This document shows positions 8,043 through 63,194 of a stretch of 64,000 nucleotides of DNA, piece after piece. Each line of letters starts with the position of its first letter. The first letter of the stretch is position 1. A program made the translations under genes and the position numbers. Below the pieces are notes generated by a model, which was not told the origin of the DNA, did not search any database, and saw nothing but the letters and a program-made list of their open reading frames with translations. The stretch comes from Galactobacillus timonensis (GTDB lineage Bacteria > Bacillota_I > Bacilli_A > Erysipelotrichales > Erysipelotrichaceae), in NCBI RefSeq assembly GCF_900240265.1, contig NZ_LT964739.1, positions 156,561 through 220,560 of the forward strand. The letters are read 5' to 3'.

Positions 8043-8043
8043 A

Positions 8044-8084
8044 GTGCGAAAAAATGACGTATTTTGGAAAGAATGGTACTTGAC
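8044..8084 (-). promoter_or_regulatory. Conserved upstream element, copy A
   Basis: On the plus strand GTGCGAAA, a 23-base spacer, then GGTACTTGAC. The same two blocks occur at 15080-15109 with a 12-base spacer, an 11-base difference close to one helical turn. This copy lay upstream of the lipoprotein promoter before IS30 inserted. It could be an activator site, perhaps for the LytTR regulator of this locus. That link is inference. Confidence 0.4.
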
Positions 8085-8101
8085 AGCCGGAGAAAGGACC
8101 A

Positions 8102-10045: not shown

Positions 10046-10161
10046 GTCTGTTTTGCCTTCTTGATATCTAATATGCTTTCATGCCATTGAGCGGCAAATA
10101 CCAGTATACGACCGCTGCTGCTTTTCATCCCGCAGGGAAGCTCATGGATTTTCCTTACCAT
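10042..10161 (-). CDS. Possible 39-residue peptide upstream of the kinase
   Basis: An ATG at 10161 opens a frame beginning MVRKIHELPCGMKSSSG and ending DIKKAKQT. Its TGA overlaps the GTG start of the kinase gene (GTGA), the arrangement of translationally coupled genes. No good ribosome site precedes it, and an internal ATG exists at residue 12. It fills most of the 158-base gap between peptidase and kinase. It could be a leader or signalling peptide, or chance. Confidence 0.3.
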   Translation of the reverse strand: MVRKIHELPCGMKSSSGRILVFAAQWHESILDIKKAKQT

Positions 10162-10203
10162 GTCCAGAAATATATATTGTCTCTGACAGAAAATGCAGCT
10201 TGA

Positions 10204-30166: not shown

Positions 30167-30214
30167 TCACACCATCTCCTTCCTCTGGTTGTTGCGCTTG
30201 CCAAGTAGCAAATA

Positions 30215-40047: not shown

Positions 40048-40545
40048 TCAGGTTCCATGCTTTTTATTGACAGTAAAAGTGTATTCTTCCTTATCCCGGG
40101 TTTCATAAAATCTTCTGACACACTTCAACACGCCTGTGGCTTTGGTATATTTGTACTTTTCGTATGGTTGGTACGAATTGTCAGATGAGTTTTCATTCGA
40201 GCCTTCACCAGTGAATGAGACGTCCGGCATGGATTGTGCAAGCACCATTGCCAGCAGTGTAGGAAAATGAATTTCGTCTTTGCCTGTCTGTGTCCCGAAC
40301 CACAGGCTGATTTCCGCCTGCATGGCATCGTTTTTGCAATAATAGAAATCGAGGAAATCTTCGCAGGTTACATCGTTGGCTGGCATGATGTAGTTTCCTA
40401 TTTCAACCTGCACATCGCTCAGATTTTCCATCGCAGGCCATCCCCAATCCTGATGCTCCCTGGCGAAATCAGAAATAACCTTGGCAGCTTGTTCTGCGTC
40501 TTCCTTGTTCTTGTACTGAATTTTGAAAAACATCCATTCCCGCAT
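40048..40545 (-). CDS. Unknown 165-residue protein at the end of the VWA-MoxR cluster
   Basis: ATG 40545 (MREWMFFKIQYKNKED) follows AGGAGTAATAAT. The sequence is soluble, with an N-terminal helix (KEDAEQAAKVISDFAREHQD), a Trp-rich piece (WGWPAMENLSDVQVEIG) and a basic C-terminal end. I do not recognise a family. It lies 108 bases after the SIR2-like gene in the same direction, so it may be the last member of the cluster. Confidence 0.6.
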   Translation of the reverse strand: MREWMFFKIQYKNKEDAEQAAKVISDFAREHQDWGWPAMENLSDVQVEIGNYIMPANDVTCEDFLDFYYCKNDAMQAEISLWFGTQTGKDEIHFPTLLAMVLAQSMPDVSFTGEGSNENSSDNSYQPYEKYKYTKATGVLKCVRRFYETRDKEEYTFTVNKKHGT

Positions 40546-40653
40546 ATTATTACTCCTCCTAATGGTTCAATATACTGATGAGCCAAATGACTACGATTGC
40601 GATAAACTGTATATCGTCAAGTAAGTATCCCTGAAAATATTACAGACTTTATA

Positions 40654-41580
40654 TCAGATTATCTGTCTCAACACCCTCTCATAATATTCTTTATAGTTTC
40701 CATTGAAATGATCCGGTGTCATGATTCTGACACCATAGTTCTGCATCAGCAGTGCTTTTCCTTTACCGTAAATATCATCTTTGCTTGCTTCATAAAATAC
40801 AGTTGATGCATCCGGAAAATTCCTTTTCTTGCAGCAAAGAAGCCACCATAAATCCATTTCCGCCGGATCCATTCCGAATCCGATGATATGCACATCACCA
40901 AGCAGAAAATAATCAACCCAGCTCAATGCCTCTATGGTTTCTTCTCCATTTTTCTCTGCTATGCGGCAACGGCGGATCAGCGATGGTACATATTTTTCAA
41001 TTTCATTCAGTAGCTTTCCATAATAGTAATGCCCCATTACCATGGAAGACGGCTGCCACGCATTGCCATGAATATGCCAGATTGGGGCTGAAGCACCACC
41101 GTCAGATAAATTCTGATATTGGAATAGAAGACGGCGTATGCGATTGTCTTCTTTACGTGTCATGCACCTATGCATGCGATATTGATAGGAAGTGTAATTA
41201 TCTATAAAAGACTGTTCAATTTCATTGGAATAATTAGCAGTCAGGATTGCATCAGCACTGCCGCTTTCAAGAAGTCTAAACAAGCTGCAGCAGTCTTGAT
41301 CCAGATGAATCTGTGTCATAAGCATGCTGATTTTCTTAATGTAATCAGTCACTTTATCATTTGTAGCTGCTACGATCTGCTGTGAAAACGGAAGCTCTTT
41401 TAAAACTGCAGCAGAAATAGCCGGGTTTTCTTTCTTCCTGATCTTCTCTATAAAATCATCACAGGAAGATTGGCCCGCTGCTCTGCAGAATCCATTTCCA
41501 ATCAGAAAAACAACAGGTCTTTTCTTCAATTGAATCATCAGATGATTTTCTTCTGACTTTAAATGCTCTTTCCCGGACAT
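40654..41580 (-). CDS. SIR2-like domain protein
   Basis: 308 residues. Motifs in order: VVFLIGNGFCRAAG (about 23-36, the nucleotide loop, GNGF instead of GAGxS), ILTANYSNEIEQSF (about 111-124, the TxNYxxxIE motif), PIWHIHGN (about 164-171, the catalytic-type His) and VHIIGFGMDPAEMDLWWLL (about 228-246). This is the SIR2_2 type found in many phage-defence systems, where it degrades NAD+. ATG 41580 follows TTGAGAAAGAAC; MIQLKKRP 14 codons in is an alternative. It starts 12 bases after the LRR-BRCT gene, so it is in the operon. Confidence 0.85.
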   Translation of the reverse strand: MSGKEHLKSEENHLMIQLKKRPVVFLIGNGFCRAAGQSSCDDFIEKIRKKENPAISAAVLKELPFSQQIVAATNDKVTDYIKKISMLMTQIHLDQDCCSLFRLLESGSADAILTANYSNEIEQSFIDNYTSYQYRMHRCMTRKEDNRIRRLLFQYQNLSDGGASAPIWHIHGNAWQPSSMVMGHYYYGKLLNEIEKYVPSLIRRCRIAEKNGEETIEALSWVDYFLLGDVHIIGFGMDPAEMDLWWLLCCKKRNFPDASTVFYEASKDDIYGKGKALLMQNYGVRIMTPDHFNGNYKEYYERVLRQII

Positions 41581-41592
41581 AAATGTTCTTTC

Positions 41593-44500
41593 TCAATTTG
41601 CTTCAGCTGCAGCAGTTGATTCAGGCTGCTCTTTTATTTCAATATACTCGCATTTAAGTTCATCCGCCATTTGCTTAGCAATGGAGTTTTTGCTGCCATA
41701 TACCTTTTTTACAATAGTACCACCATAGTTATATGTATCGGCAAGAACGTTGAGATTATCTATCTTTTTCAGACTGTCTGGAATTGTTATTTCTGTTAAT
41801 TTACTGCATCCTCTGAAAGCCCGTGCATCAAAATCCGTCATACCTTCAGGAAGAACAATGTTTTTAACTCCACTTGCCAAAAAAGCAGCAGGATGTATTA
41901 CTCTTATTGAACTTGGGAGAGAAATATTTTCAAGACTACTGCATCCATAGAATGCTCCTTCTCCAATTTCAATCACTCCTTCCGGAATTTCAATTTTCTG
42001 GATGGAACAGGACTTAAAAGCACTTTCTCCAATAGAGATAACATCTGCAGGAATCACGGTATTTCTGCATCCGGCAATCAGCTTATTTGTTTTTGTTTCG
42101 ATTACCGCATTGCAGTTCTCTCTGGAATCATACACCGGATTGGCAGGATCTACAGTGATACTTACAAACTGATCTCTTTCCGTTAATGGTGCATGAATAC
42201 TATCTGTACTTGCAGGAATGCAGATACTACGGATTGACCAGCATCCATCAAAAACATCCGAACCGATATATTCAACAGTTGAAGGAATACTGACATCTGT
42301 CATCTTTGTGCAGTAATCAAATGCATTATCACCAATTCTGCGCAGCCCTTCATTCAGCTTTATCGATGTTAATTCCGTGCACCTTGCAAATGCACATTCA
42401 GGAATTTCTTCTATTCCTTCAGATAATTCAACTTTGCAGATATCTATGTTGTCTGTAAAAGCAGCTCGTAGGAAAACAGAATATCCTTCAATTCTGTCCG
42501 GAACCTGAATTTCTTTTTCTTTGCCGATGTATTTCCAAAGATAGATCTTTTGTTCATAGATAGAGAATTCATAATTCGAAATACTTCTGTAATTATCTGT
42601 ACCGAAAAGATTTTCAAAATAGTCATCCGCATGTTTCAGACATTCTGAAGCCTTGATAATAGCAACATGTTTTCCTTGCTTTCCTGGATGCATTGCCTTT
42701 TTTGTAATGGCGTTTTCTATGAATTCATAATCCGGAATAATCAGATAATCAACATCTTTTCCAAATCTGTTTTCAATTATTCCTCCTGCACTGCTTATTC
42801 TGCTTTCAACAAGTGAAATCATTTCCCTGTCTTTTTTATCCATTTCCAGAAATTCCATGACGAAGAAATGACTGTCTGAAAACACAATGGAATTAACAGT
42901 TTCCGCTTTGACGGAATTTATATTGGCTGCAGCTTGACTGGTTTTCTGTTCCTGTGCAATTCTCTGTTTCAGCTGCGGATCAGTAATTATACTTGCATCA
43001 AAGTCAGAGACAGTATGGAACTTCTTTTTATACCATCCCTTGTAATTATGCATATCATATATAACAAAGCTCCCATTTGTATAAATTCCTTCAGGAGGAG
43101 TATCAAATAATCTTACATTGCTTTTCAGGTTGCCCAGAGCAAGAAGATTTGTTACTTTGGCGCCTGCAAACAACTTGGATGGATACTTTTTCTCTGGTGA
43201 TTCCAGAACCAATGTATTGATTACAGCTCCGTTAAATGTATTATGACCTGAAAAGGATATTTCTTTTGCTAGATATAATTCTTTTAAATGCGTGCATCCT
43301 TCAAAAGCCTGTGATCCTATTTCCCGAATTGTTGTAGGAAGCGTTATGTATTCAAGATTCTCACAGCCTGAGAATGCTTTGGCTCCGATTGTTTGATATC
43401 CTTCCGGGATTGTTATGGTCCTGATATGCTTATAGTACTCAGGAGCACTGCCTGCTGTACCTGCAATGCCATTGATCTTTATGCCGCCTACCTGTTCAGG
43501 GAATACAACATTTTCCTCATTTCCATGATACCTTGAGATAAGATGTGTGCCTGCTTTCGGCTTCTTCCAGGGGTCAACGTGTTTTGGAGATGCAGCGCTT
43601 TGTGCCACAGCAATCTTTTTTCTGATTTCTTCAGCTTTTTTTATATTCTCTTCAGGTGTATATGGCTTTGTTAATGAATAACGATAATGATGCTCCTTGA
43701 AATATTTCTCTGCAGGAGAGTCTGCAATAAGCTGCCAGTTGGTTTCTTTGAATTCGCCAAAATTTCCAGTTGGATGCGAAAGGCTTTCTGGAAGCTTTAC
43801 TGTGAAACCTTCTGAATGCTCATCCGGTAAAAAAGCATCAAGATTCAGCTCTGTTATGCCTTCCTGAATATCAATCTCAACTGTATGGTAAATGTGACCA
43901 AGTGAATACGGTTCAAGTATAGAAAACCATCCAGGCACTATGATCTTGCTTACGCTGCTGTCAACATAAAAGGAATAAGAAGCATAATTTCCGATACCGA
44001 TCACATACTTGTCACCGATTTTTTCAGGGAAAGTGACAACTGAATCATTTCCGTGATAACCCGTAATCAATACACAGCCATTTTTATATTTGAAATCATA
44101 TATTTTTCTCCAGTCTGATACTTTCATTGATCGCTTAGAAGATTTATCATCCATTTTCCCAAGTGATGGCATGCTGGATGTCTTGAAATGCTCTTTCTTG
44201 TAATCCAGCAGCATTGCAGTTACTTCCAGCATTTCATGTTCTGATGCATAAGTGGTCAGCTGCTCCGCTGCCTTCTCATTGAATATGGCAAGATCGCATA
44301 AAAAGCCTAGCAGTGATATATCTTTCCGTTCAATTGCCAGCATACCAGCCTTTACAGAATACCTTTTCAGATAGGAAAGATAAAGATTCCTGAATTCATC
44401 AGAAAGCATATATGGATACTGCATGCGGACTGCAGCCATCCGCAGTTTGTTTTCAGGTTTTGAAATGACAGTGAACATGGAATCATAGCCAGCAAAATCA

Positions 44501-45465
44501 AATCCCCCATTCTTGTTGCTGCGAATTGCAAGAATAAAAGCACAGGATTTCGGCTCTGTTTCATCTTTTATTGCAAGAATGATTCTTGCAATTACTTTTC
44601 CTGTCTGATCCCGAAAACTGATCATTGCACCATCAATTCCAATTATGGAATAAGCAGATGCATATGTTTTAGCTTCTCCACTGGTCTTCCAGCGAGGGCA
44701 ATGGATTGACATCTCAATTTCGCCTCTGCAATCTTCAAAAGCATTTGCATCGACTGATTCACAGCCATCAGGAATTACAATTTTATCCTTTTTGGTGTCA
44801 GAGGTAAGCACCCGTTTCCCCTGCATCAGTACTCCTGATTCACCTGTAAGTCCATCGCATTTCTGAAAAGCATCTTGGCCTATTTTCAAGGAATCCAGCG
44901 CAGGACCGGTGATTTTCTTAAGATCATGACAGTAGCTAAAAGCACCACTTCCTATTTCATCAAGACTGTCTGGAAGATTGATAGACTCCAGACCGCTGAA
45001 AGAAAAGGTGTCTGCTTCAATCTTTTTAACGCCATCTGGAATCACGATTGTTTTTAAAGCAATGCAGCCTGAAAATGCGTCTGCACCGATTTTCTGCAGA
45101 TGTCTGGGAAGATGTATCTCTCTGAGTTTTTCACAAAGCTGGAATGCGCCGGGCATAACAGTTGTTACTGTTTCCGGCAGCTGGATCTGTTCAATGATGG
45201 TATCGGAAAAAGCACCACGACCGATTATTTCTGTTCCTTCCTGGATAATCACTTCCTGGATTGAATTATATCCTTCAAGAAGACCATCCGGAATCTTCTT
45301 TAAGCTTGCTGGAAATACAATTTTTTTAATATGCTCATTTTCACAATTCTGAAACACATCGGAGCCAATGGAGATAACTCCTTCAGGAATAATTACAGTA
45401 TCACTATCACCGTTATATTCTTTCAGGCATCCTGAACGATCTATTACAAAATCTTTGTTGTCCAT
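41593..45465 (-). CDS. Giant LRR_5 (BspA-like) protein with BRCT-like domain
   Basis: 1290 residues, no signal peptide, so cytoplasmic. LRR_5 repeats of the BspA type (GAFSxCxxLxxIxIPxxVxxI) fill about 15-260, 480-560, 645-760 and 985-1260. A helical segment near 370-430 ends EVTAMLLDYKKEHF, like the ends of the DUF4132 proteins upstream. A BRCT-like domain lies at about 862-950: FFVMEFLEMDKKDREM, SAGGIIENRFGKDVDYLIIP, KHVAIIKASECLKHAD. It starts 15 bases after the MoxR stop, with GAAGGAAGG upstream. Likely a binding or recognition partner of the ATPase. Intracellular BspA-LRR proteins of this size are unusual. Confidence 0.8.
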   Translation of the reverse strand: MDNKDFVIDRSGCLKEYNGDSDTVIIPEGVISIGSDVFQNCENEHIKKIVFPASLKKIPDGLLEGYNSIQEVIIQEGTEIIGRGAFSDTIIEQIQLPETVTTVMPGAFQLCEKLREIHLPRHLQKIGADAFSGCIALKTIVIPDGVKKIEADTFSFSGLESINLPDSLDEIGSGAFSYCHDLKKITGPALDSLKIGQDAFQKCDGLTGESGVLMQGKRVLTSDTKKDKIVIPDGCESVDANAFEDCRGEIEMSIHCPRWKTSGEAKTYASAYSIIGIDGAMISFRDQTGKVIARIILAIKDETEPKSCAFILAIRSNKNGGFDFAGYDSMFTVISKPENKLRMAAVRMQYPYMLSDEFRNLYLSYLKRYSVKAGMLAIERKDISLLGFLCDLAIFNEKAAEQLTTYASEHEMLEVTAMLLDYKKEHFKTSSMPSLGKMDDKSSKRSMKVSDWRKIYDFKYKNGCVLITGYHGNDSVVTFPEKIGDKYVIGIGNYASYSFYVDSSVSKIIVPGWFSILEPYSLGHIYHTVEIDIQEGITELNLDAFLPDEHSEGFTVKLPESLSHPTGNFGEFKETNWQLIADSPAEKYFKEHHYRYSLTKPYTPEENIKKAEEIRKKIAVAQSAASPKHVDPWKKPKAGTHLISRYHGNEENVVFPEQVGGIKINGIAGTAGSAPEYYKHIRTITIPEGYQTIGAKAFSGCENLEYITLPTTIREIGSQAFEGCTHLKELYLAKEISFSGHNTFNGAVINTLVLESPEKKYPSKLFAGAKVTNLLALGNLKSNVRLFDTPPEGIYTNGSFVIYDMHNYKGWYKKKFHTVSDFDASIITDPQLKQRIAQEQKTSQAAANINSVKAETVNSIVFSDSHFFVMEFLEMDKKDREMISLVESRISSAGGIIENRFGKDVDYLIIPDYEFIENAITKKAMHPGKQGKHVAIIKASECLKHADDYFENLFGTDNYRSISNYEFSIYEQKIYLWKYIGKEKEIQVPDRIEGYSVFLRAAFTDNIDICKVELSEGIEEIPECAFARCTELTSIKLNEGLRRIGDNAFDYCTKMTDVSIPSTVEYIGSDVFDGCWSIRSICIPASTDSIHAPLTERDQFVSITVDPANPVYDSRENCNAVIETKTNKLIAGCRNTVIPADVISIGESAFKSCSIQKIEIPEGVIEIGEGAFYGCSSLENISLPSSIRVIHPAAFLASGVKNIVLPEGMTDFDARAFRGCSKLTEITIPDSLKKIDNLNVLADTYNYGGTIVKKVYGSKNSIAKQMADELKCEYIEIKEQPESTAAAEAN

Positions 45466-45480
45466 TCCTATACCTTCCTT

Positions 45481-46992
45481 CTATTTAAGTTCCAGCTGAT
45501 CCAGCTGGCTGATGATTTCTTTCTGCCTGTCATAGAACAGAAGATCTTTATTATGCTCAAAGTATTCCTTGCATCCAAAGTGGCTGATGTAATCAGCAGT
45601 ATAGTAATTTGCTGTAAGTTCTGTTACCAGAATAAGCATCTCCTGCCCACCCTTGAATACTTCTTCTACAAAGTGGAACACATTGGATAATGCTTTCCCG
45701 CATTGATCTGCTTCTGCTTTCAATTCCTTATTTCCTTTGCTGTATTCTTTCTTGATCAGTTTGAATGCTTCAGAACTATTAGACGGCTTATCTTTGACCA
45801 ACTGCTCTTTAATTGCAGACAATGACGCCACGGCACTGTGATAAGCATGCTGCTGATCTGTGGATAAGGAAGATGCCCTTTTTGCTGTCTCAAGCTTTTT
45901 CTTAATGACACCAATGCGCTTTTCAAGCACCTCTGCTGCATCGATGTTTCTGGCAAGATCCTGCTTGGCATCCATCATCTGATGCATTACCTCCAGCTGG
46001 CTCTGCTCTGTGTAATAGACATTTCTTGCTCGAGATGATACTGCATCAATCAGCAGTCCAAGCAGAGACAGTCTTTCATCAAACGGTGCATTTTCTGCAC
46101 GCTGCTTGATCTCATCAGAAGCCTTTCCTTCCATGATCTTATCTACCTGATAATCGGACCTGTATTTGATGAACAAGTCATAGTAGATGGCAAAATCCTT
46201 GGCAATCTTGGGATTCTGAAGATACTGCTTGATCAGATCCTCATTGACAGGAATATTGTTTTTCTCGTAAAGCTTCATCATATCTGAAAGATCTGACCAG
46301 CCTCTTGCGGTTACAAAAGTCTTTCCATCTATGGTTGTCTCTATTTTATAGAAATTCTGCTTTTTGATATCCAGATAGGACGTAATGGAAGGATGAATTC
46401 CTTTCTTATAGGCATATTCCTTCCATACCCCGTAATCCGGTTCTACATCAATTCTTTTCAGACGATCCCATGTGACAATGTCATATTCACGGACAGAGTT
46501 GTTGTATTCAGGCGGGTTTCCGGCTGTTACTACAATCCATCCATCCGGCACACGGTGCCTCCCAAAGACTTTGTACTGCAGGAACTCCAGCATTGCCGGA
46601 GCAAGCGTTTCTGAGACGCAGTTGATTTCATCCAGGAAAAGAATGCCTTCTTTCATTCCCGTGTCTTCCATCATGCCATAGACGCTGGCAATAATTTCAC
46701 TCATAGTGTATTCACTGACACTGTATTCTTTGCCGTTGTAGTTCTTCTTTACAATGAAAGGAAGACCAAGTGCACTTTGTCTTGTATGATGCGTCATGGA
46801 ATAAGAAACAAGACCAACACCAAGTTCAGAAGCAATCTGTTCCATAATGGCAGTCTTTCCAACACCAGGCGGACCCATCAGAAATACCGGACGCTGCTTT
46901 TCAATCGGAATGACATATTCTCCGAATTCATCCTTTGTAAAATACGCCTTCATTGCATTCTTGATTTCCTGTTTGGCCTGCTTGATGTTCAT
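45481..46992 (-). CDS. MoxR-type AAA ATPase
   Basis: 503 residues. Walker A MGPPGVGKTAIMEQIASEL (about 39-57), Walker B GILFLDEINCVSETLAPAML (about 115-134), sensor 1 WIVVTAGNPPEYNNSVREYD and arginine region VTWDRLKRIDVEPDY. The C-terminal half (about 230-503) is a long helical extension with a coiled coil (DAAEVLEKRIGVIKKKLETA). It resembles the YehL branch of MoxR ATPases, which work as remodelling chaperones with a VWA partner. It overlaps the VWA gene by 4 bp (ATGA), so the two are coupled. Confidence 0.92.
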   Translation of the reverse strand: MNIKQAKQEIKNAMKAYFTKDEFGEYVIPIEKQRPVFLMGPPGVGKTAIMEQIASELGVGLVSYSMTHHTRQSALGLPFIVKKNYNGKEYSVSEYTMSEIIASVYGMMEDTGMKEGILFLDEINCVSETLAPAMLEFLQYKVFGRHRVPDGWIVVTAGNPPEYNNSVREYDIVTWDRLKRIDVEPDYGVWKEYAYKKGIHPSITSYLDIKKQNFYKIETTIDGKTFVTARGWSDLSDMMKLYEKNNIPVNEDLIKQYLQNPKIAKDFAIYYDLFIKYRSDYQVDKIMEGKASDEIKQRAENAPFDERLSLLGLLIDAVSSRARNVYYTEQSQLEVMHQMMDAKQDLARNIDAAEVLEKRIGVIKKKLETAKRASSLSTDQQHAYHSAVASLSAIKEQLVKDKPSNSSEAFKLIKKEYSKGNKELKAEADQCGKALSNVFHFVEEVFKGGQEMLILVTELTANYYTADYISHFGCKEYFEHNKDLLFYDRQKEIISQLDQLELK

Positions 46993-48407
46993 ATGATTCT
47001 GTTCCTTTCCTTTAATTCATCCGGTCTTAATACAAGCTTGATTGCCCAGTCCGGAACTTCAACATCATCAATTCCTTCATTCAAAAATACGAATGCTGTT
47101 TCATAATCCGGCTTGGATTCCGGATACCATCCATATCCATCTGTAAAATAAATCAGTCCTTTGAGATTAGAGAATTCATTTTCTGCAACAAGTTGATTAA
47201 CATAAGCGAATACCGGTCTGAAATCTGTTCCACCCATTCCATGGAGCTTCATAGTTTTCAAGTACTGATCAAATTCTTCCTGTGATGTAATCTTTGCGTC
47301 TTCCGTGATCTCTGCATCGCACTGGATGATATGAATATTGATTTTAGAGAAGAAGCTCTCGGTGCTTTTGAGAATATTGTATGTCTTCTGCACGAAAGCC
47401 TGCACAAGATCTCCTGAGGTTGATCCTGAGGTATCAATGGCTATGACAAATTCACGGATACGCTTTACTTCACGATACTCAAGCGGTTCAATCAATGGCA
47501 TGTTCCCATACATCTTCATACCATAGGTATAGAAGATGTAATCAAACTCATCCGGATCAAGCTTCATTACTTCCCCGCACACTGCAAACTTTTTTAGAAA
47601 AGAAGTGTAATCATATTTTTCACGGTTTACTTCTTTGAGGTTCTGCACAAGATCATAGGATTCTGATCCCTGCATTCTTTCCTTCTGAAAGGTTTCCATA
47701 TCCGTCTGCATTCTTTCAGAGATTTTCTTCCATTCCTCTTCCTGCCTGAGATTGGAAAAATATGATGTTTCTCTTTTCCCGTGAGAATTCTTTCCGGAAC
47801 TGCTGCTGTTTCCGGATACACTTCTATTGCCTCCGCCTCCTGTTATTTCTATTTTCTTTTCGTCACTCATGTACCAGATCAGATGATCATCTGCCTGAAA
47901 GAGAGGTGCATATTTTTGGGCATAAGCATCATCATAGTTCTGATCAAGAAAATAGGCGTAGATCACTTCTGCAGTCATGTACTTCACTTTTTTACGAAGC
48001 TGATTCAGATAGGATTCCTGCTTCATCTGACGTGAAGAACGTGTGCTTGATAAAGAAAGACCATTGATGATATTTTCTACTGCAATGTCACAGGAAAAAT
48101 TCCACAATGGCTGATTGATCAATGTATGCACATACATGTGCCGGAATATGCAATGAAAAACCATATGCAGATAATCCCGATTGACTGCTTCTTTCTCTTT
48201 TCTGAATATTCTGAGGACATAGCGTGGATCATAAATAAAGTAATGACCATCTGTGCATAACGTTCCGGGATATTCTTTAAATTCAAACTGGCTTAATGCC
48301 ATATCCAGAAAGCGAAGATTCACTAAAAGAGTGTTCCTGGACAGCTTTAAAACTTCTGCTGCCAGAGATCTGATCTGATTGATTTTATCTTCGCTTTTTA
48401 TTTCCAT
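46989..48407 (-). CDS. VWA-domain protein (DUF2201/YehP-like), MoxR partner
   Basis: 472 residues. The N-terminal helical part (about 1-170) carries MVFHCIFRHMYVHTLI, a degenerate metallopeptidase-like stretch as in DUF2201. A Gly/Ser linker follows (near 190-215, GGGGNRSVSGNSSSSGKN). The VWA domain starts EFVIAIDTSGSTSGDLVQAF (about 320-340) with the MIDAS DxSxS, followed by GMGGTDFRPVFAYV (T) and LIYFTDGYGWYP (D). MIDAS residues are intact, so it should bind a metal and a partner. It starts 13 bases after the DUF4132 remnant, with AAAGGAAC upstream. Confidence 0.88.
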   Translation of the reverse strand: MEIKSEDKINQIRSLAAEVLKLSRNTLLVNLRFLDMALSQFEFKEYPGTLCTDGHYFIYDPRYVLRIFRKEKEAVNRDYLHMVFHCIFRHMYVHTLINQPLWNFSCDIAVENIINGLSLSSTRSSRQMKQESYLNQLRKKVKYMTAEVIYAYFLDQNYDDAYAQKYAPLFQADDHLIWYMSDEKKIEITGGGGNRSVSGNSSSSGKNSHGKRETSYFSNLRQEEEWKKISERMQTDMETFQKERMQGSESYDLVQNLKEVNREKYDYTSFLKKFAVCGEVMKLDPDEFDYIFYTYGMKMYGNMPLIEPLEYREVKRIREFVIAIDTSGSTSGDLVQAFVQKTYNILKSTESFFSKINIHIIQCDAEITEDAKITSQEEFDQYLKTMKLHGMGGTDFRPVFAYVNQLVAENEFSNLKGLIYFTDGYGWYPESKPDYETAFVFLNEGIDDVEVPDWAIKLVLRPDELKERNRII

Positions 48408-48420
48408 GTAATATGTTCCT

Positions 48421-49175
48421 TTACCAGTTCAGCGTGAAATCACTCATCGGATCGAATTGTGAGAATTGCTGATTTTTATAATTCAGAAGAAGAGCAAGAA
48501 CATTAACTGCATGCACTTTTTCGGCTTCTGAAATAAACATATTGATCTGAGCAAATGTAAAACAGGGAAACTGATCAGCAAGCGTTACATCATCATTATG
48601 CACTCTTTCCAAGGCAGTGATGTGGTCCAGATAAGCAAGCTGATGATTTGCTCTTCGGGTATACTCTTCTTTCACACCAACCGATGCTATGTTAAATCGA
48701 TCAGTTGGATTGATCAGGTGCTTGTATCCCCAGTTAACACGATTGATTTCTATATTAAGATCAGAAAATGTGATTGAAATTTCATTGTGAAAATCACTGT
48801 CTGTTACTGTTATGCCAATCCTTTCCTGTCCAAGAAATCTGTAATATGGAATTTTACAATCAACATATCTGTCGGATCTCACATCTGCAGGATTGATAAC
48901 CGGCTCCCATATCTGCAGAAATGGCTGTTTCAAGGAATGGGCAGTAAAATATTTCAGCCATTCTTCCAAATCATTTGACATCATTTCCAGTGGATGAGCA
49001 ATCTTTACTGACGCATCATTAAGTACATACGACTTTTCATGACTGTCAATAAAACCTTCTGAATCCATTGTAAAAGTCGAATTGCCCTGCGACCACACAA
49101 TCAGCATTTCCGCATGTTTCAGTACGGGATTGTTAAAATAAATCTCTTTCCAAGCTGAAACAGTTTTTTCCTTTC
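48421..49175 (-). pseudogene. DUF4132 protein, C-terminal remnant (third copy)
   Basis: The open frame enters from the IS1595 boundary: RKEKTVSAWKEIYFNNPVLK, HAEMLIVWSQGNSTFTM, AHPLEMMSNDLEEWLKYFTA, QPFLQIWEPVINPADVRSDR and ends LLLNYKNQQFSQFDPMSDFT then LNW. The first in-frame ATG is at 49107. It matches the last 250 or so residues of the two intact DUF4132 proteins. The N-terminal LRR and middle regions are gone, and the sequence beyond the IS does not contain them. The VWA gene follows after 13 bases. Confidence 0.87.
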
Positions 49176-50344
49176 GCTAAGTTAAACGAGATTTGATGCC
49201 ACCTCATTGAAATAGCTTTAAAAAGACGTCATGTACACATGCTTTAATTTTTCACGGGTAACGTTGTACTTCACTTCCTTCAGTTTCCTGACAATCAGCT
49301 CTGTAATCTCGTTGTCAACCATACCCAAAAATCTCCGCTTGATGACAAACAGCGCCAGATAACGATCAAGGTAATACGATGCGACGCCTCGATAAAAGGC
49401 ATAGATCTTCTTGATCATGGAATGGATGCAGTTGACGGTATTCAGATGCTCAACTTTGTTGTAGCTCGCATAGCTTTCAGATGACGAATGTCGCATTCGG
49501 TTTTCTTCGCCAGATCGTCGTAAATATGCGAGCCATCTACGTACATCTCTGATTTGCATTCGATTTCATCTTCGAATCCTTCATCAATATCCTCTGCTGA
49601 TGGCCTCCCTGTTTCCGCTGTCTTATACACTTCATGGCCATTACGATCGGAAGATGTGACGATACAGACCTGCTCATGGGAAATTCCTCTGTAATGGCTG
49701 GATTCGCCTCTTCTGCGAACTTCCCGTTTGATTGACCTGGCTCCTTTCTGAGACTCAAGCACATACGTCTCATCTATTTCCACGGTACCTCCCAGCTTTT
49801 CTGTTTCTTCCCCCAGAGCTTTTTCAAGGAAACAGAGAAATTTATGGCGGTTCTCAAATACACACTGTATGGACCGGTTGAGTCTGCCTGCGGTTTTCTT
49901 CATCGGTACGCAGAGAATCGCATCCTTGCAGATCTCAACGAATTCCTCCTGTGTGATCTTGAGGTTTTGCGTCATGGTTCCGGAATCATACACAAAGCGT
50001 TTGCCACAGGATCTGCAGCGGTAGATCTGCTTTGTGGCATAGGGATTGCCGGTACGTTTTCCACCCGTATGCTTAATGTGCTCAATTCCTGCTTTTGTAA
50101 ATCCGTCGGCACAATGGCATTTAGGACATACCTCCGGCTCGGTCCCGGCAAGCTGAGCATTCAGATTCGCCATGTCATTGACGACACGGATGACGCGATC
50201 CTGCTGGGAATCAGTGAGGCTGAAAAACTTACAAAGAACATCGGGAACTCTCATTGTTGTCCTCCATTTTTATGGCTTCTAATGACAGTTTCCTACTTGA
50301 GGGTTACAAAAACGTACAGTGAACCAAATCTTGTTTAATTTAGC
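49176..50344 (-). mobile_element. IS1595-family element, copy 1
   Basis: Inverted ends GCTAAGTTAAACGAGATTTG (left) and GCTAAATTAAACAAGATTTG (right, reverse complement). The left end is shared with copy 2 at 63415. No 8-bp target duplication is seen (TTCCTTTC against GTAAAGTT), and the gene on its left side lost its 5' part. The element therefore marks a deletion rather than a clean insertion. Confidence 0.85.
49218..50254 (-). pseudogene. IS1595-family transposase, frameshifted
   Basis: Starts MRVPDVLCKFFSLTDSQQDR at 50254. A zinc-finger N-terminus (EVCPKCHCADGF, YRCRSCGKRFVY) is followed by the ISXO2-type DDE core (GGTVEIDETYVLESQKGARS, MYVDGSHIYDDLAKK). Near 49474 one C is missing compared with copy 2, so ECDIRHLKGYASYNK becomes AMRATTKLSI. 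The C-terminal part (KVEHLNTVNCIHSMIKKIYA) continues in another frame to 49218. Probably inactive. Confidence 0.9.
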
Positions 50345-50412
50345 GTAAAGTTTTACTGCTGGAGATCAATCAATATTGATGGCATCTTTGCTTACTTAGT
50401 TCATATTGCCAG

Positions 50413-53253
50413 CTACCAGTTCAGTTCAAATTCATCCAACGGATCTGAAGTTCCGTATTTCTGATTCTTATATTCAAGCAGAACTGCTGATGCATTGACG
50501 CATTTGTTTTCACCTGCATATTTGATGAATTCATTGATTTGAGGAAGCGTAAATTCATTAAGTATCGGTTTAAAGCTAGCATCATCTTTATGGATCAAAT
50601 CGTAAACAGCTATTTTGTCAAAATAAGCTATAAGATGATTGACCTTTCGGGTAAATTTTGAAAATTTGAATGAGTCAATGCTGAATTTATCTTTTATGCT
50701 GTAATTCCAATCCAATCTGGTAATCCGGACATTACAGTCATCAAAGGTTATTTCGATATTTCCTGACTGTTTTTCTGCGTGTATGCCATTTTTTTCCTGA
50801 TTGGCAAATCGATAATATGGAATTGATAAATCTGAGTAGCGATCTGCTTTAATCACTGAAGGATCACATACAGGCTCCCAGATCTGAAGGAATGGCTGCT
50901 TTAACTGATGAGAAGTAAAATATGTTTTCCATGCATTCAGATCAACTGGCTTCATCTCAGTTGGATAAGCTACAGCGACAGGCTCTTCTGCAATTTCATA
51001 AGATTTTTCATCAGAAGTTACAGCACCATGATCAGTTACTGTAAACGTTGCTTCACTCTGTTTCCATACGATTAAACGTGCTAAGTGATTCAAAACAGGA
51101 TTGTCAAGATATGTTTTAGCCCAGCTTTCTGGTGTTCTTTCGCTTCCACTGAGAAAATCCTTGAAAAGTGCATCGGACCTGTACTTATATATATCTTTTA
51201 CTGCTTTCTTTAATTTTGCAAAATCAGCTGCTGCATCAGCATATTTCAGTGGATCTGCACCTTTTTTGGGGAGTGATTTAGCGGTTTTGCCATTCGGAAG
51301 TTCTATAATGAAACTTAAATCATTCTTCAGGAATGCGACAACTTTCTGATTACCAAGATCGTACTCTTTGCGATCATCCACATTCAAGCCTGTATCCGAT
51401 ATCATATCGCGCAGTTCATCAACACTTTTATTCCTGGCTTCTGCATATTTATCAAGTTCATTGTATTTATCCGCAAACATAATTGCAGAACGTGTATCGC
51501 TCTCACGCACTGCTTCACGGAATACAATCATCGCACGGGAATTTCTTCCGCTGGAGTGAGTCGCAAGCTTTGGAGCGGCAGCGCACATTTTTTTCATCAG
51601 ATCCTCATCAGCATACCTGCAAAGCGGATAAGCCAGATAGCACTGCTTGATTCCTGCGAATCCATTGCAGATATACTTATCAGCCAGATCATTCAGGGCC
51701 TTGTGGAAACATTCATGATCCAGAAGCTTTATAACTGAGCTGGCACTCCGATCAGTACATAAAAGCCATTCCAGCACATAATAATCAAGCTTATTTCCTT
51801 TGCTGTCATATAGCTCAGGCAGATCAGAAGGTCTTAACAGGAATTTTGAATAAAGCTTTTTACCAAGTTTTTCCAGATCGATCTTTTCTGACTTCATTCG
51901 ATCAAGAACCATATTTTCAACTATATTGGTCTGTCCCTTAAGTTCTTCTTCACTATAAAATTTTTCTTTCAATGCCCTGTTTTCATTAAAGCGTTTCTTT
52001 AATGAGCCATCTGTATCATGCTTTATTATTAATTCGTATGCATCTTTTACATAATCATCAGATAGCTTTTTATAATAAGTTTCCAGATACCACATCAATC
52101 CTTCAAGATGACTTCTGCCGGGATCTTCCGATATTTTTTCAAAAATCTTCTGTCCTAAAGGAACGATGTCACCAGAACCGATACACTTTTTAAAAAAACT
52201 CTTAAACTGGAATTTATCATTCATCAATTTAACATAAGTATCTGCTTGCTGTTCCAGACTCAGTGATTGCCATATTTTCTTATCTGCTAAAATACATGTT
52301 TTTATATCTGCATCACTCAGCATGTCAAGAAAATCGGATACAAATGGAACCAGCTTACTGGGTAAATACAAAAAATTATTTTCTGCCAGGCTTACTCCAT
52401 CATGAATATCAACTGGCATATCACATCCATATAGTTCAAATTTCTCTATGCCACTGCACCAATTAACTAAATTTTTTCCTAGTTTTACATTTTTTCCTTG
52501 AATTATAACTGTTTTTAAATTGTTGCAGCCGCTAAAAGCATAATCCCCAATTATCTTCACTGATTCCGGAATGATGATTTCCGTGATTAGGTGATTCTCA
52601 TAAAAAGCATGGTCCTTAATTGCAGAAACACCTTCTGGTATTTCAACTTTTGGATTAATGCCTAAATACTTTACTACTGCATTATTACGAATGATAAGAC
52701 CGCTTTCATCTTTATGCACTGTACATCCCAGCAAACAATCAGAACTGACAAATACTTTTGAAAAATCAAAATCATAATCCGTCTTTATTTGAATCTCCCC
52801 ATTATTTGCGAAAGCGCGGCTTCCGATTGTTTTTACTGAACCAGGTATATAGATGCTGCTGATTCCCTTATCTTCAAATGCTGTTGACTGGATATCTGTT
52901 ACACCATCTGGTATTCGTACATCGACATTATCTCCAAAATATTCAATTAGATGATTATTTATTATTACAAATCCATTTTCATCAGCCAGTTTGCTGCACC
53001 CACTAAATGCTCCGTCCATTATGCGAGCAGACAGATTTGGAAGAACTACGCTTTGCAAAGATATACTGTTTTCAAATGCATGAAAACCTATTAATTTCAA
53101 GCTGGCAGGAAATAGTACAGAAGTTATATTGCTGTTTTTAAATGCGTCCGATGCTACAATTACAATTCCTTCCGGTACATTTATACATGTTGAATTTCCA
53201 TGATAACCTGTGAGAATTTTTCCGGTTTTATCTGTTTCAAAATCACTTGTCAT
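50413..53253 (-). CDS. LRR_5-DUF4132 protein, copy 2
   Basis: 946 residues, no signal peptide. BspA-type LRRs cover about 1-290 (NSNITSVLFPASLKLIGFHA, FSGCNNLKTVIIQGKNV). A helical middle region with HEAT-like character follows (about 300-690). The DUF4132 domain (about 700-946) has LARLIVWKQSEATFTV, VAYPTEMKPVDLNAWKTYFT, QPFLQIWEPVCD and DRYSDLSIPYYRFAN, and ends LLEYKNQKYGTSDPLDEFEL then NW. DUF4132 is known from MolR/YehI, encoded near the YehL MoxR and YehP VWA genes in Escherichia coli. It begins 50 bases after copy 1. I infer a client or effector of the MoxR-VWA pair. Confidence 0.85.
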   Translation of the reverse strand: MTSDFETDKTGKILTGYHGNSTCINVPEGIVIVASDAFKNSNITSVLFPASLKLIGFHAFENSISLQSVVLPNLSARIMDGAFSGCSKLADENGFVIINNHLIEYFGDNVDVRIPDGVTDIQSTAFEDKGISSIYIPGSVKTIGSRAFANNGEIQIKTDYDFDFSKVFVSSDCLLGCTVHKDESGLIIRNNAVVKYLGINPKVEIPEGVSAIKDHAFYENHLITEIIIPESVKIIGDYAFSGCNNLKTVIIQGKNVKLGKNLVNWCSGIEKFELYGCDMPVDIHDGVSLAENNFLYLPSKLVPFVSDFLDMLSDADIKTCILADKKIWQSLSLEQQADTYVKLMNDKFQFKSFFKKCIGSGDIVPLGQKIFEKISEDPGRSHLEGLMWYLETYYKKLSDDYVKDAYELIIKHDTDGSLKKRFNENRALKEKFYSEEELKGQTNIVENMVLDRMKSEKIDLEKLGKKLYSKFLLRPSDLPELYDSKGNKLDYYVLEWLLCTDRSASSVIKLLDHECFHKALNDLADKYICNGFAGIKQCYLAYPLCRYADEDLMKKMCAAAPKLATHSSGRNSRAMIVFREAVRESDTRSAIMFADKYNELDKYAEARNKSVDELRDMISDTGLNVDDRKEYDLGNQKVVAFLKNDLSFIIELPNGKTAKSLPKKGADPLKYADAAADFAKLKKAVKDIYKYRSDALFKDFLSGSERTPESWAKTYLDNPVLNHLARLIVWKQSEATFTVTDHGAVTSDEKSYEIAEEPVAVAYPTEMKPVDLNAWKTYFTSHQLKQPFLQIWEPVCDPSVIKADRYSDLSIPYYRFANQEKNGIHAEKQSGNIEITFDDCNVRITRLDWNYSIKDKFSIDSFKFSKFTRKVNHLIAYFDKIAVYDLIHKDDASFKPILNEFTLPQINEFIKYAGENKCVNASAVLLEYKNQKYGTSDPLDEFELNW

Positions 53254-53302
53254 ATCTAAACATTTCTTTCTTTTGCTGTTTAATGCTAGTTATAATCTTT
53301 GC

Positions 53303-56300
53303 TTAATAATCTAAGATAAACTGATCCATCGGATCATAATCTTTAAAATTTTTATTCTTATAATTCATGAGAACCACAATTGAGTTTGCTGCCTTGCAGG
53401 CATTTGCTTCATCAATCAGATCCATGATTTGCTGCAGCGTGAAACCGTTTAAAATTGATTCATTGATATCTTCATTTTTCCGAATACGTTCCCTCAGCGT
53501 CCACATGTCGAGAAGATAAAGAATGTGATTATTTTTTCTTGTGATTTTTGAAATAGTAACATTTCCAAGAGCAACCCTTTCATCCTCTGGAATCACATGT
53601 CTGATCTCATGAATGCAGTGATTATCAATTGACATATCATCCGTTGTAAAATACCGCTTATCATGGAAATCTTCATCATGGAAATGAATGCCATGTTCAT
53701 CTGCATTTTTCACACGATAAGATGGAATTCCCATGCCTGCATACCGATCAGGTTTTATGTCCTCAATATGATGCACACATTCCCAGATCTGCGGGAATGG
53801 CTGTGCAAGATTGCTGGCTGTGAAATATTTCTGCCATGCTTTTATGTCATATGAAGTCATTGCTAGGGGATGTGCCACTTTAACTGCTGACTGATTCAGC
53901 TCGTATGGTGTTTCATCAAATGTAATGAATGATTTATTTTTTATTGTAAATGTATCAGTTCCCTGAGCCCAGACAATACGTTTAGCAATGTTCCGTAGAA
54001 CCGGATTATCCACATATGATGATTTCCACTGATCTGCCTTCCAGACCGTTTCATTCAGAAATGATCTCAGCAGGATATGCCTGCGATCAGAAATCACACT
54101 TTTTATATTTTTTCGCATTTCACTGATATCTTCTTTTGCTTCACCATACAGTACAGGATCAGTTCCTTTTTTAGGAATTGATTTCAGTTCTTTCTTTGTG
54201 GCTGGATCATATAGATTTACCTTCAGGTCATCCGATATGCAGACTTCAACCTGCCTGCTGCCAAGATCTAATATTTTCTTACCGTCTTCATCCAGTCCGA
54301 AATCAATCAACTTATGGTCAATAATTGTATCGATATCAGTATTTCTGATCTTTGCATAGTATTTCAGATCATACTCATTTGCATTTTTGCTGATTTGCAG
54401 CAATGCAGCTTTTGTATCGCTCAGCAGCAATGCGTTTCGAATCAGCATCAGGAAACCTCGTCCTCCACGACCGGAAAAACCTTGTTTATTCACCGCTGCA
54501 ATAAGCCGTGCAATCTGTTTTTCATTTCCATATCTTGCATAGGAGATCAAAAATGAACCATGGCATTTTTTGAAGCGCTTTCCATCCGAGCTGAATCTCA
54601 GCTCTCCGTACTGAATTTCAAAACGGTCCAAGAGATCGCTGAATTCTTCCTGATTCATTTCAGCTTGAATACGATCAGCATCTTGGGAAAAATCAAATCC
54701 CAAGTTCAGGGTTTTATATTCGTCAGCAGTTGCCGCAATACTCTGCTTCATCTGCCCGCTGTACGAAGCAAGAACAAACACAAGTGCCTGCATTGAGCAT
54801 AATTGACCATTCCTGTAATGAATTGGGCTCAGACCAAGCTGGTTTGTTCTTCTTACCGCATCCGGATCAAGTTTGTTCCAATTCAACTTCACAGAAGTTT
54901 CCAGATGGTCTTCATCAGCAGAGCTTTGATTATTCCCTGAATTCTTATTATCTTCGGCTTTTCTATCTGCTGGAGATATTTCGCCAGATAGAAATCTGTG
55001 AAATATTTCAAGATCTTCACCGTTTGCATTTGCTCCAGCAGCTCCTATGAATTCTGAGGCATCTTTTTTATATTGACTCAGTAAATCATTCTGCTCACAC
55101 GCAGAAAGAGTATTTACAACATTCGCAATTACATCTGAAAAACTGATTCTCTGATGCTGTATTTCCTGTACAAGCAGATTGTTTTTTCTCTTTCCCTCCA
55201 TATACAGAGCAAGCTTACTTGCATTGAAAACAGTAAGATTGCTCATATCTATCTGAAGACTTCTTCTTACTGGATCAGGCTTTGCCAATCCATCTGCAGA
55301 TAGTTTTTCTATATCGATGAACCATCTGCCTATTTCAGCTATATCTGAAGTGTTTCCTGCATTTGTATTGGAATCTGTTAAATGATAAGTTACTTTTCCA
55401 GTAAATATGTGATTGATTACAGCTTCAGGCTTTTTCAGAAACTTCTGGAAGGCAGAATTCTCGGTAAACATTTTTACTGCATCGCTTTTTCTATTAAGCA
55501 TGAAATCATAGAATTTTCTAAGATCCGCAATACTGAAATTCTTTTGATTTCTCAGGACAAATCCGGTCGCATTCGATTCATAGCAATAGACTTCTGCACC
55601 TTTTTCATGCTGAAGAATATTCATGATTGCTTCAATAATTTCATGTGGGTTGAATGCAGTACTGTTCCAGTTTACTGTTTCATTCCGGCTCACGCCGCTC
55701 ATATAAACTGCTATTTGAGCAGCTTCATTGCTATCATGTGCTGACAATTCATAACGCTCCCTGTCAGACTGAGGCAGGCGTAAGATAGTTTCAGAAAGTT
55801 TATTCTGAGCAATATAGACACATTCATTGTCCCATTTAGAACCAGCTGCTGTTATAATACATAAATCCCGTGATGGCAGAACAGACGAAATACTGCCATC
55901 TGCGTTTTTTATAATCAAGCTTCCACTTCTGATTGATATCCTTTCGTTATCCGTATAATCAATACTGGCAGGATCACATGTAAAAGCTTCACATCCGATT
56001 TTCTGCAGACTTTCAGGAATAATAACTTCAGTCAGTGGACATTTATAAAAGCATCTCTGTCCGATTTCTTTTAAACCGTTATTGAAAATTATTGTTTTTA
56101 AGTTCGCACAACCATAAAAAGCACTTTCTTCAATGACTTTGAGTGACTCAGGAAACACTATGTTTTCAAGAGAAGTACATTCTGAAAATGCCGCTGTGCC
56201 GATCTTTTCTATTCCTTCTGGTAAAAGAATAGTTTTCAATGAGCTGCAGTTTCCAAACGCTCTGCTTCCAATGCTCTTGACACCGGATGGAATTACAGCC

Positions 56301-56533
56301 TCAGTCAAAGCAGTATCACCAAGCAGAGCATTTTCCGGTATCTTTTTCATACCTTTTTCAAATGTAACTCTGCGAATACTTTTCCCAAGTATGCCTGTTG
56401 TTCCATCAAAAGTACTGCCGTCAAAATAACCGATTGCTACGGTCTTTATGTTTTTTGGAAAAAAAACCTCAACGGCTTTCCCAGTATATTTTGTAAGAAA
56501 ACCATTTTTGTCAGTGATAAACTCATTATTCAT
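53303..56533 (-). CDS. LRR_5-DUF4132 protein, copy 1
   Basis: 1076 residues. LRRs lie at about 20-195 (FDGTTGILGKSIRRVTFEKG, FGNCSSLKTILLPEGIEKIG). A long, variable helical middle follows (about 230-830) that differs strongly from copy 2. The DUF4132 domain (about 835-1076) has AKRIVWAQGTDTFTIKNK, VAHPLAMTSYDIKAWQKYFT, QPFPQIWECVHHIEDIKPDR and ends VLMNYKNKNFKDYDPMDQFI then LDY. ATG 56533 follows ACAGGAGAAACTTCAGCA. It appears to be the first intact gene of the cluster, although a remnant of another copy precedes it. Conserved ends with divergent middles suggest different partners or targets. Confidence 0.85.
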   Translation of the reverse strand: MNNEFITDKNGFLTKYTGKAVEVFFPKNIKTVAIGYFDGSTFDGTTGILGKSIRRVTFEKGMKKIPENALLGDTALTEAVIPSGVKSIGSRAFGNCSSLKTILLPEGIEKIGTAAFSECTSLENIVFPESLKVIEESAFYGCANLKTIIFNNGLKEIGQRCFYKCPLTEVIIPESLQKIGCEAFTCDPASIDYTDNERISIRSGSLIIKNADGSISSVLPSRDLCIITAAGSKWDNECVYIAQNKLSETILRLPQSDRERYELSAHDSNEAAQIAVYMSGVSRNETVNWNSTAFNPHEIIEAIMNILQHEKGAEVYCYESNATGFVLRNQKNFSIADLRKFYDFMLNRKSDAVKMFTENSAFQKFLKKPEAVINHIFTGKVTYHLTDSNTNAGNTSDIAEIGRWFIDIEKLSADGLAKPDPVRRSLQIDMSNLTVFNASKLALYMEGKRKNNLLVQEIQHQRISFSDVIANVVNTLSACEQNDLLSQYKKDASEFIGAAGANANGEDLEIFHRFLSGEISPADRKAEDNKNSGNNQSSADEDHLETSVKLNWNKLDPDAVRRTNQLGLSPIHYRNGQLCSMQALVFVLASYSGQMKQSIAATADEYKTLNLGFDFSQDADRIQAEMNQEEFSDLLDRFEIQYGELRFSSDGKRFKKCHGSFLISYARYGNEKQIARLIAAVNKQGFSGRGGRGFLMLIRNALLLSDTKAALLQISKNANEYDLKYYAKIRNTDIDTIIDHKLIDFGLDEDGKKILDLGSRQVEVCISDDLKVNLYDPATKKELKSIPKKGTDPVLYGEAKEDISEMRKNIKSVISDRRHILLRSFLNETVWKADQWKSSYVDNPVLRNIAKRIVWAQGTDTFTIKNKSFITFDETPYELNQSAVKVAHPLAMTSYDIKAWQKYFTASNLAQPFPQIWECVHHIEDIKPDRYAGMGIPSYRVKNADEHGIHFHDEDFHDKRYFTTDDMSIDNHCIHEIRHVIPEDERVALGNVTISKITRKNNHILYLLDMWTLRERIRKNEDINESILNGFTLQQIMDLIDEANACKAANSIVVLMNYKNKNFKDYDPMDQFILDY

Positions 56534-56622
56534 TGCTGAAGTTTCTCCTGTTCTAATAGAATGGAAAATTACCTATAGCTCGGAAAACTGATTTTTATCT
56601 TCATCTGCTTTTCTTATGTCAA

Positions 56623-56676
56623 CTACCAGTCAAGTACAAACTGATTCATCGGATCATACTTCGGAAAATTCTGGCT
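56623..56676 (-). pseudogene. Last codons of a fourth DUF4132 gene
   Basis: The minus strand encodes SQNFPKYDPMNQFVLDW then TAG, matching the DUF4132 endings KNKNFKDYDPMDQFILDY and NQQFSQFDPMSDFTLNW. Everything upstream is replaced by AT-rich sequence and an IS200 fragment. The array once held at least four copies. Confidence 0.75.
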
Positions 56677-61954: not shown

Positions 61955-63194
61955 ATGGGAACAGGTTTCATGAGTAAGCTGCCAAGGATCTTTGCTACGG
62001 TGGAGGGGTTGAATGCAGCAATGAAGATTGTGCAGCAGGATCCAGATGCCGGATGGCTTTTCGGATGGGGATCCGGATGAATATGATCCGGATAATGATC
62101 AGTACAATTATTCAGAGGACATGTTCTTTGATCCTCCTTATGAAAAAATGGCTGACACCTGGGACATGACCGAAAGGAAAAAGGTTGGGAATTCTGATCA
62201 GTTGCATAGTTGTGCGGGAAAGAAGTTTGTCATTGCAGGTGAGATGAAGCACTTTCAAGGTAGAGATGGAATTGTGGAATGCATTACTGCAGATGGCGGT
62301 AAGGTGACAGAAAACGTAGGTAAAAAAACAGATTATCTCGTTGATAACATCGATGGTTATTCAGCCAAAAGAGAAAAAGCGAAGAAGCTCAATGTGCCTG
62401 TCATTACTGAAGATAAATTTATTGAAATGTTCGGCGGTTCAGAGAAAGTAGTAGATCAGAAGAAGGTTGATATTCCGAAACCAATAACAAGGAATGGCAT
62501 TATTTTCGAAGAATGGGAATACAATCTTTTGAAAGACGGAACTGTCCGGATTGTGAATTATACAGGGCGGCACTCGACCGTTAAAATTCCATCAATGCTG
62601 GATCATAAAGAATTATCTGAAATAGGGCCGGATTTATTCAGTCTGGATGATCATGATCGCACCCGAAGGATTCCTCGGGAAAAACGGAAAAGTCTGGAGC
62701 CGATCAGAAAAGTGTATATTCCCGGTTCTGTCAAAAAGATTGGAAGAAATGCATTCAGCTGCAATCCTGTAAAAAAAGTTCTGATGGAGGATGGAACCGA
62801 AGAAATCGGAGCATACGCTTTCAGCGGCTGCCAACTAGAATCTATAAAGCTTCCGGGTACACTGACAATTATCGGAAAAGGCGCTTTTGAAGGTTCACAG
62901 GGGATCAAGCAGTGGAATCTTCCGGAATGTTTGAAAGTCATTGATGACGACGCATTCCAGTATTCGAGCATTTATGATGTTTATATTCCTTAGTCAGTTA
63001 AAAAGATTGCAGATAATGCATTTATAGGAGCCCCATTCGAATGGGACGAGGATGGTTTTCCTGTATTCGATGAGGATGAAGAAGGAAACGAAATAGATCA
63101 TTTTACGATCTATGGAAAGCCTGGCAGCAAAGCAGAGGAATATGCAGAAAATAATGGTTTCTCATTTGTACCTGCAGATCACTGTCCATTTTGA
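61955..63194 (+). pseudogene. BRCT-LRR_5 protein gene with frameshift and amber codon
   Basis: ATG 61955 after AAGGAGG gives MGTGFMSKLPRIFATVEGLN and AAMKIVQQDPDA. Near 62050 one extra G shifts the frame; the other frame continues DGFSDGDPDEYDPDNDQYNY. A clear BRCT domain follows (about 62215-62440): KKFVIAGEMKHFQGRDGIVE, ADGGKVTENVGKKTDYLVDN, VPVITEDKFIEMF. LRR_5 repeats then run to VYIP, an in-frame TAG (62991-62993), and SVKKIADNAFIGAPFEWDED through KPGSKAEEYAENNGFSFVPA to 63194. The BRCT domain resembles that of DNA ligase LigA. Domain make-up parallels the 1290-residue protein. Confidence 0.8.

Follow-up and report, generated by a model that had tools for sequence, protein, structure and literature searches.

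What does a MoxR ATPase with an adjacent VWA protein serve in a gene run that also holds leucine-rich repeat (LRR), DUF4132, BRCT-like and SIR2-like proteins? This question is raised by positions 40048..56676 of a 64,000-nucleotide stretch of the Galactobacillus timonensis genome (contig NZ_LT964739.1), hereafter called the window. The original prediction for this run was a new conflict or defense system. We judge the chances about even that MoxR and VWA form a protein-remodeling pair, with cytosolic BspA-type LRR proteins carrying a shared helical module as its clients. This reading builds on comparative sequence evidence, i.e., the conserved LRR-VWA-MoxR gene order, the shared module, the co-occurrence of module and MoxR, a peptidase-like domain without the catalytic Glu in the VWA protein and the faster divergence of the LRR proteins.

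Genome contigs yielded 118 relatives of the MoxR ATPase, and the locus counts that follow use the closest 80. Open reading frames (ORFs) in the relatives were called by our own procedure (codon score plus homology), which loses some genes. VWA is present in 71 of the 80 loci, an LRR-like protein in 68 and the module in 67, whereas DUF4132 occurs in four (L001 to L004) and SIR2 in two (L001 and L003). These counts point to LRR-VWA-MoxR as the core, to which DUF4132 and SIR2 were added in those loci that most resemble the window; the originally proposed combination thus recurs as MoxR-VWA with LRR partners, but its DUF4132 and SIR2 members do not generally travel with it. Among the nine loci without a VWA call, L035 has a VWA gene missed by the gene picker (L098, from the same genome, shows it), and in several others MoxR lies where the contig stops. 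A module protein, VWA and MoxR are consecutive in 45 of the 80 loci, and in 9 loci VWA and MoxR flank one to six module proteins. The LRR genes stand in tandem, in arrays that differ among loci, with up to six modules per locus. Two further genes stand out: an RNase_T-type exonuclease gene, another possible accessory effector, lies between VWA and MoxR in L003 (6581-7120, plus strand), and in L085 two module-LRR genes are immediately followed by the gene for a 1738-aa protein (6556-11769) that combines TIR and SecA-like domains.

The helical module, of about 86 residues, is common to the LRR, LRR-DUF4132 and LRR-BRCT proteins, and Pfam at E 0.1 gives no match over this region in the window proteins. 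The C-terminal parts of 46 core LRR proteins served to build its profile, which was iterated over 1171 predicted proteins from the loci and the window and settled at 94 proteins. In this set, the module sits at the C-terminal end of LRR-DUF4132 proteins and in the middle of the 1290-aa LRR-BRCT protein of the window (residues 342-427; 44185..44442, minus strand; domain E 1.3e-20), and two proteins (L014 and L015) have DUF6273 and no LRR according to Pfam. The module is carried by 86 of the 99 LRR-like proteins of the 80 loci. An F-x-[LI] motif within the last 8 residues ends 56 of the 65 proteins with a C-terminal module, compared with 86 of all 1171 ORFs, those 56 included; these counts are not independent, because many of the proteins are orthologous. 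The structure model of one core LRR protein (L024; predicted local distance difference test score, pLDDT, 91.5) consists of the LRR part and six C-terminal helices, the last 6 residues having a pLDDT below 50. In an alignment of 41 sequences of this protein, F322 is nearly invariant and L324 fully invariant.

The same module accompanies the DUF4132 proteins of this system. In the window, it is detected weakly in LRR-DUF4132 protein A (residues 1030-1063; 53345..53446, minus strand; domain E 3.4e-4) and more strongly in protein B (residues 882-932; 50458..50610, minus strand; domain E 9.4e-10), which ends in EFELNW. We found 304 relatives of the DUF4132 region of the window; among the 120 of these that were listed, the module lies within 40 residues of the C-terminal end in every one (at domain E values no higher than 0.1), and an F-x-[LIMV] end is present in 117. 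By comparison, Escherichia coli YehI gives no module match under E 0.1, 16 other DUF4132 proteins from a family sample give none under 0.8, and no F-x-L-type end is visible by eye in YehI or in these 16. The control set comprises 16 of 19 matches, leaving out L152, which is the system's own LRR-DUF4132 protein with the module, and two fragments (L153 and L155). Homologs of YehL, YehM, YehP and YehQ neighbor 10 of the 16 control genes, and DUF4132 is thus found with MoxR-VWA sets of two kinds. One yeh-type set has a module-LRR gene between its YehM and YehL homologs (L159:17861-18532, minus strand).

The VWA partner protein (46989..48407, minus strand) matches DUF2201_N and DUF2201 in Pfam and has a VWA domain; the MoxR-type AAA+ ATPase (503 aa; 45481..46992, minus strand) matches AAA_5 and bpMoxR, the latter at 30.4 bits against a cutoff of 27. 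A site of the metal ion-dependent adhesion site (MIDAS) type, with its DxSxS, T and D residues, is present in the four VWA sequences compared. In each of the 65 VWA proteins aligned, which measure 430-540 aa and include that of the window, the HExxH-type site of the DUF2201_N region reads HxxxH, lacking the Glu, and peptidase activity is therefore unlikely. Divergence is faster in the LRR proteins than in MoxR or VWA: over 435 pairs at 75-85% MoxR identity, mean identity is 78.5% for MoxR, 76.5% for VWA and 56.1% for the LRR proteins. L006 and L007, for example, are 95% identical in MoxR and 92% in VWA, with LRR best matches of 56-75%. The window LRR proteins have BspA-type LRR_5 repeats, and a simple hydropathy scan gave N-terminal maxima of 0.91 to 1.49 over 15 residues, with no clear hydrophobic signal; these proteins are thus probably cytosolic.

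Module and MoxR also co-occur at the genome level. In the class of G006 (391 genomes), 18 genomes have the module, 24 have MoxR, 18 have both and 367 neither, so that MoxR is found in 18 of 18 module genomes versus 6 of 373 without the module (Fisher p 3e-26, or 5e-25 if the seed genome is left out). In the family of the Negativibacillus genome G004 (locus L004; 197 genomes), the corresponding numbers are 30, 35, 25 and 157 (p 6e-19). All of these Fisher values overstate independence, the genomes being related, and the family, order and class samples were built around genomes in which the system had been found beforehand. Module matches lie within 15 kb of MoxR in 24 of 26 cases in the class sample and in 54 of 68 in the 29 genomes that supplied loci, and those dispersed module proteins that were examined resemble LRR proteins.

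Several observations weigh against MoxR-VWA as a remodeling pair for module-carrying LRR clients. In the family sample, 23 of the 46 module matches have no MoxR within 15 kb, 5 of the 30 module genomes lack this MoxR and 10 of the 35 MoxR genomes lack the module; 4 of the 29 locus-supplying genomes show no module at E 0.01, and 13 of the 99 LRR-like proteins in the 80 loci are without it. In one of the five module genomes that lack this MoxR, a module-LRR gene lies between ruvC and ruvA-ruvB (L132; Pfam), and two further ones (L133 and L134) probably have the same arrangement, as suggested by the sizes of the genes and a match of RuvB type. Before iteration, when the profile was based on nothing but core LRR proteins, its matches to the DUF4132 tails were weak (E 0.0002 to 4.5), and the link between module and DUF4132 therefore rests on intermediates. 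Moreover, proteins with an internal module (29, including the 1290-aa one) lack the F-x-L end, their module being followed by other sequence, and this end may simply be inherited along with the module.

In the remodeling model, the VWA protein would dock the module, often together with its C-terminal F-x-L end, and the LRR client, whose LRR surface might read a target, would be remodeled or set free by MoxR at the cost of ATP. The lineage of the window would have multiplied these clients, fused them to DUF4132 and BRCT, and added an SIR2-type effector, a predicted NADase. Such an elaboration might have produced a surveillance or conflict device. Points for a conflict role are the fast divergence of the LRR proteins, their tandem arrays, the SIR2 relatives found beside TIR proteins (two loci) and in a BREX set (one locus), and the type I restriction genes in the window. 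On the other side, the trio often has shared chromosomal flanks in Oscillibacter-type loci, which argues against a conflict role there and against a purely mobile defense system. Flanking clusters shared among the 80 loci include an ABC transporter ATPase (28 loci), GntR (22), a NifU-like protein (18), a DHH/CBS protein (17), an M24 peptidase (15) and HSP90 (13); these are single-linkage clusters with one representative each named by Pfam, and this kind of clustering may overcount large families, ABC transporters for example. Weighing the defense points against the shared flanks, we leave the remodeling machine at even chances and regard a surveillance or conflict role of the window version as a real prospect that falls a little short of even.

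The alternative that survives best is a housekeeping chaperone, in which MoxR-VWA would mature or assemble an LRR-containing complex with no conflict role, the DUF4132 and SIR2 genes of the window being later additions. It accommodates the shared flanks and agrees with the chaperone-like character ascribed to MoxR proteins in passages of PMC3893208. However, the roughly twofold faster divergence of the LRR proteins relative to MoxR and VWA, and tandem, differing LRR arrays with up to six modules per locus, are less readily expected of such a chaperone, which we consider credible but less likely than not.

In a model developed from the original prediction, LRR and BRCT proteins would sense phage, MoxR-VWA would transduce the signal, and SIR2 would deplete NAD+ and kill the cell. 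The SIR2 protein itself (308 aa; 40654..41580, minus strand) passes the Pfam cutoffs barely, with 31.8 versus 30.9 bits for AbiH and 26 versus 24.5 bits for SIR2_2, and a PDB sequence search gave no match at E values up to 1. Throughout an alignment of 121 rows, in which the window protein occurs twice, N116 and H171 do not vary; the 120 listed relatives include the window protein. We take this conserved Asn and His to be the catalytic residues of the SIR2-like domain, and their invariance makes an active site plausible. The killing model is favored by these residues, by the 12 bases that separate the SIR2 gene from the LRR-BRCT gene, by the adjacency of SIR2 and LRR genes in L001 and L003, and by the company that SIR2 relatives keep elsewhere: they directly follow TIR-TPR-DUF6273 genes in L184 (3279-10063) and L187 (6226-9871) and lie inside a BREX set, between PglX-like and BrxC genes, in L189 (9076-9978). 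Yet SIR2 did not turn out to be a regular part of the system. Beyond its presence in 2 of the 80 loci, the order of G003 (245 genomes) has SIR2 relatives in 9 genomes and this MoxR in 21, the two coinciding in G003 alone; neither module nor MoxR is seen in the stretches fetched for the remaining eight SIR2 loci, and no module occurs on the 120 listed SIR2 relatives. Four of these eight neighborhoods were characterized (the three above and L182, where the relative is near PLD and helicase proteins), and the gene appears to be a movable conflict-system effector. We regard the killing model as unlikely.

The remodeling model sits on a locus whose original description was largely accurate, in that all genes are on the minus strand where its coordinates had placed them and most of the gene set is real, although details required correction. 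Both long proteins, A (1076 aa; 53303..56533) and B (946 aa; 50413..53253), match LRR_5 and DUF4132 in Pfam (6e-23 and 2e-27), and the DUF4132 and SIR2 assignments alike hold in profile searches. Two intact LRR-DUF4132 genes were thus rightly seen, but instead of two remnants tblastn gives one, the C-terminal part of a third protein (48421..49176, minus strand; 44% identical to B; module domain E 1.7e-6), cut by an insertion sequence (IS) element. This IS1595-like element (49170..50350, minus strand) interrupts the array; its transposase is split over two frames, and inverted ends lie near 49170 and 50350. From protein A onwards, the gaps are 49, 1305 (the IS stretch), 13, -4, 15, 12 and 108 bases; the 4-bp overlap of VWA and MoxR is as first noted, and the short gaps claimed elsewhere apply except at the IS stretch and before the last ORF. 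The 1290-aa protein (41593..45465, minus strand) has an LRR - helical module - LRR - BRCT-like - LRR architecture. Its LRR_5 match is firm, whereas the BRCT-like domain (residues 859-924; 42694..42891, minus strand) is borderline, under the cutoff in the full-length protein (0.012) and marginally over it as an isolated piece (21.4 versus 21.3 bits). The run ends with a 165-aa ORF (40048..40545, minus strand) whose sole match among 5.8 billion proteins is its own cluster and which has no relative in the loci fetched; its membership being doubtful, we left it out of the system.

Other features of the window lie outside this run. A second BRCT-LRR gene (62028-62993, plus strand, continuing at 62994-63191) is interrupted by an in-frame stop and lacks the module; its BRCT match is clear (1.3e-7), as is LRR_5 (4e-20). 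PADLOC profiles identify a type I restriction-modification set (R, S and M) at 26858-32898 on the minus strand. The transposase (first copy at 49218-50254) has a partial second copy at 63460-63999 (minus strand), and several transposase-like ORFs, named by eye, surround the locus. That SIR2, BRCT and DUF4132 genes landed by chance beside an LRR-VWA-MoxR core in an IS-rich region is very improbable: the transposase-like ORFs, the orphan ORF at the locus end and the IS element within the array would suit such a pileup, but the LRR-DUF4132 fusion recurs in four further loci, SIR2 in two of those, and the window genes are joined by short gaps and one overlap.

If the remodeling model is true, the MoxR-VWA pair gains a defined client class with a recognizable tag, and DUF4132, a domain of unknown function, becomes linked to two MoxR-VWA kinds that share no significant blastp similarity. 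As a direct handle, the module would predict which proteins should bind the VWA partner, and should the LRR proteins act as a set of sensors, common gut bacteria would possess an LRR surveillance system. The gene set may be a sensing or quality-control machine that has here also gained a possible suicide enzyme. A bolder extension, which we consider less likely than not, is a bacterial LRR-receptor system that would add one more type to the MoxR-VWA machines: its fixed motor, the MoxR-VWA pair with a presumably inactive peptidase-like domain, would serve variable, multiplying cytosolic LRR sensors, each plugged in by an exchangeable helical module, often with a C-terminal peptide end, while the outputs DUF4132, BRCT, DUF6273 and SIR2 would be swapped on and off.

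The original prediction knew of no description of this gene combination, and in the accessible parts of the open-license literature we indeed found no description of a MoxR-VWA set with LRR partners. The E. coli yehI-yehK-yehL-yehM-yehP-yehQ set (DUF4132, MoxR, VWA and SWIM proteins) is alike in having DUF4132 beside a MoxR-VWA pair. It differs in that YehI has neither LRR nor module, and the eight window proteins have no match at E 0.1 to SWIM, the family of YehQ. Nor is a YehL/YehP-type pair, to which the original prediction had pointed, supported for the window, since sequence comparison finds no detectable similarity for its MoxR and VWA (best blastp E 0.38 and 0.13). From BspA/TpLRR proteins, the window LRR proteins are set apart by the module and by having no strong N-terminal hydrophobic stretch in the simple hydropathy scan. 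The likeness to AbiH/SIR2-type effectors consists in the two Pfam matches over cutoff and the invariant N116/H171; the window-type gene occurs in several differing contexts, and its NAD+ hydrolysis is predicted.

The nearest relatives in organization are the MoxR-vWA ternary conflict systems, for which the available text of Kaur et al. 2020 (PMC7159879) gives four subsystems (VMAP, iSTAND, FtsH and beta-propeller), to which that of PMC8195603 (2021) adds iSTAND2 and TERNS3. The term LRR appears once in the available text of PMC7159879, in the reference list, and SIR2 is absent from it; what is available of PMC10907252, also on MoxR ternary systems, has neither. Pfam finds no VMAP, iSTAND or FtsH match in the eight window proteins, remote versions not having been searched with dedicated profiles, and at E 0.1 the VWA protein of the window gives no match to a propeller family, whereas subsystem 4 has a beta-propeller fused to its VWA protein. 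Our set differs in having a BspA-type LRR protein as third component, in its occurrence in gut Bacillota and in the GPPGVGKT P-loop of the window MoxR. Both kinds nonetheless combine MoxR, VWA and a third component with variable partners, and the window MoxR passes the bpMoxR cutoff. The closest working analogy to the module is offered by the effector-associated domains (EADs) of PMC7159879, which recruit partners by a shared domain.

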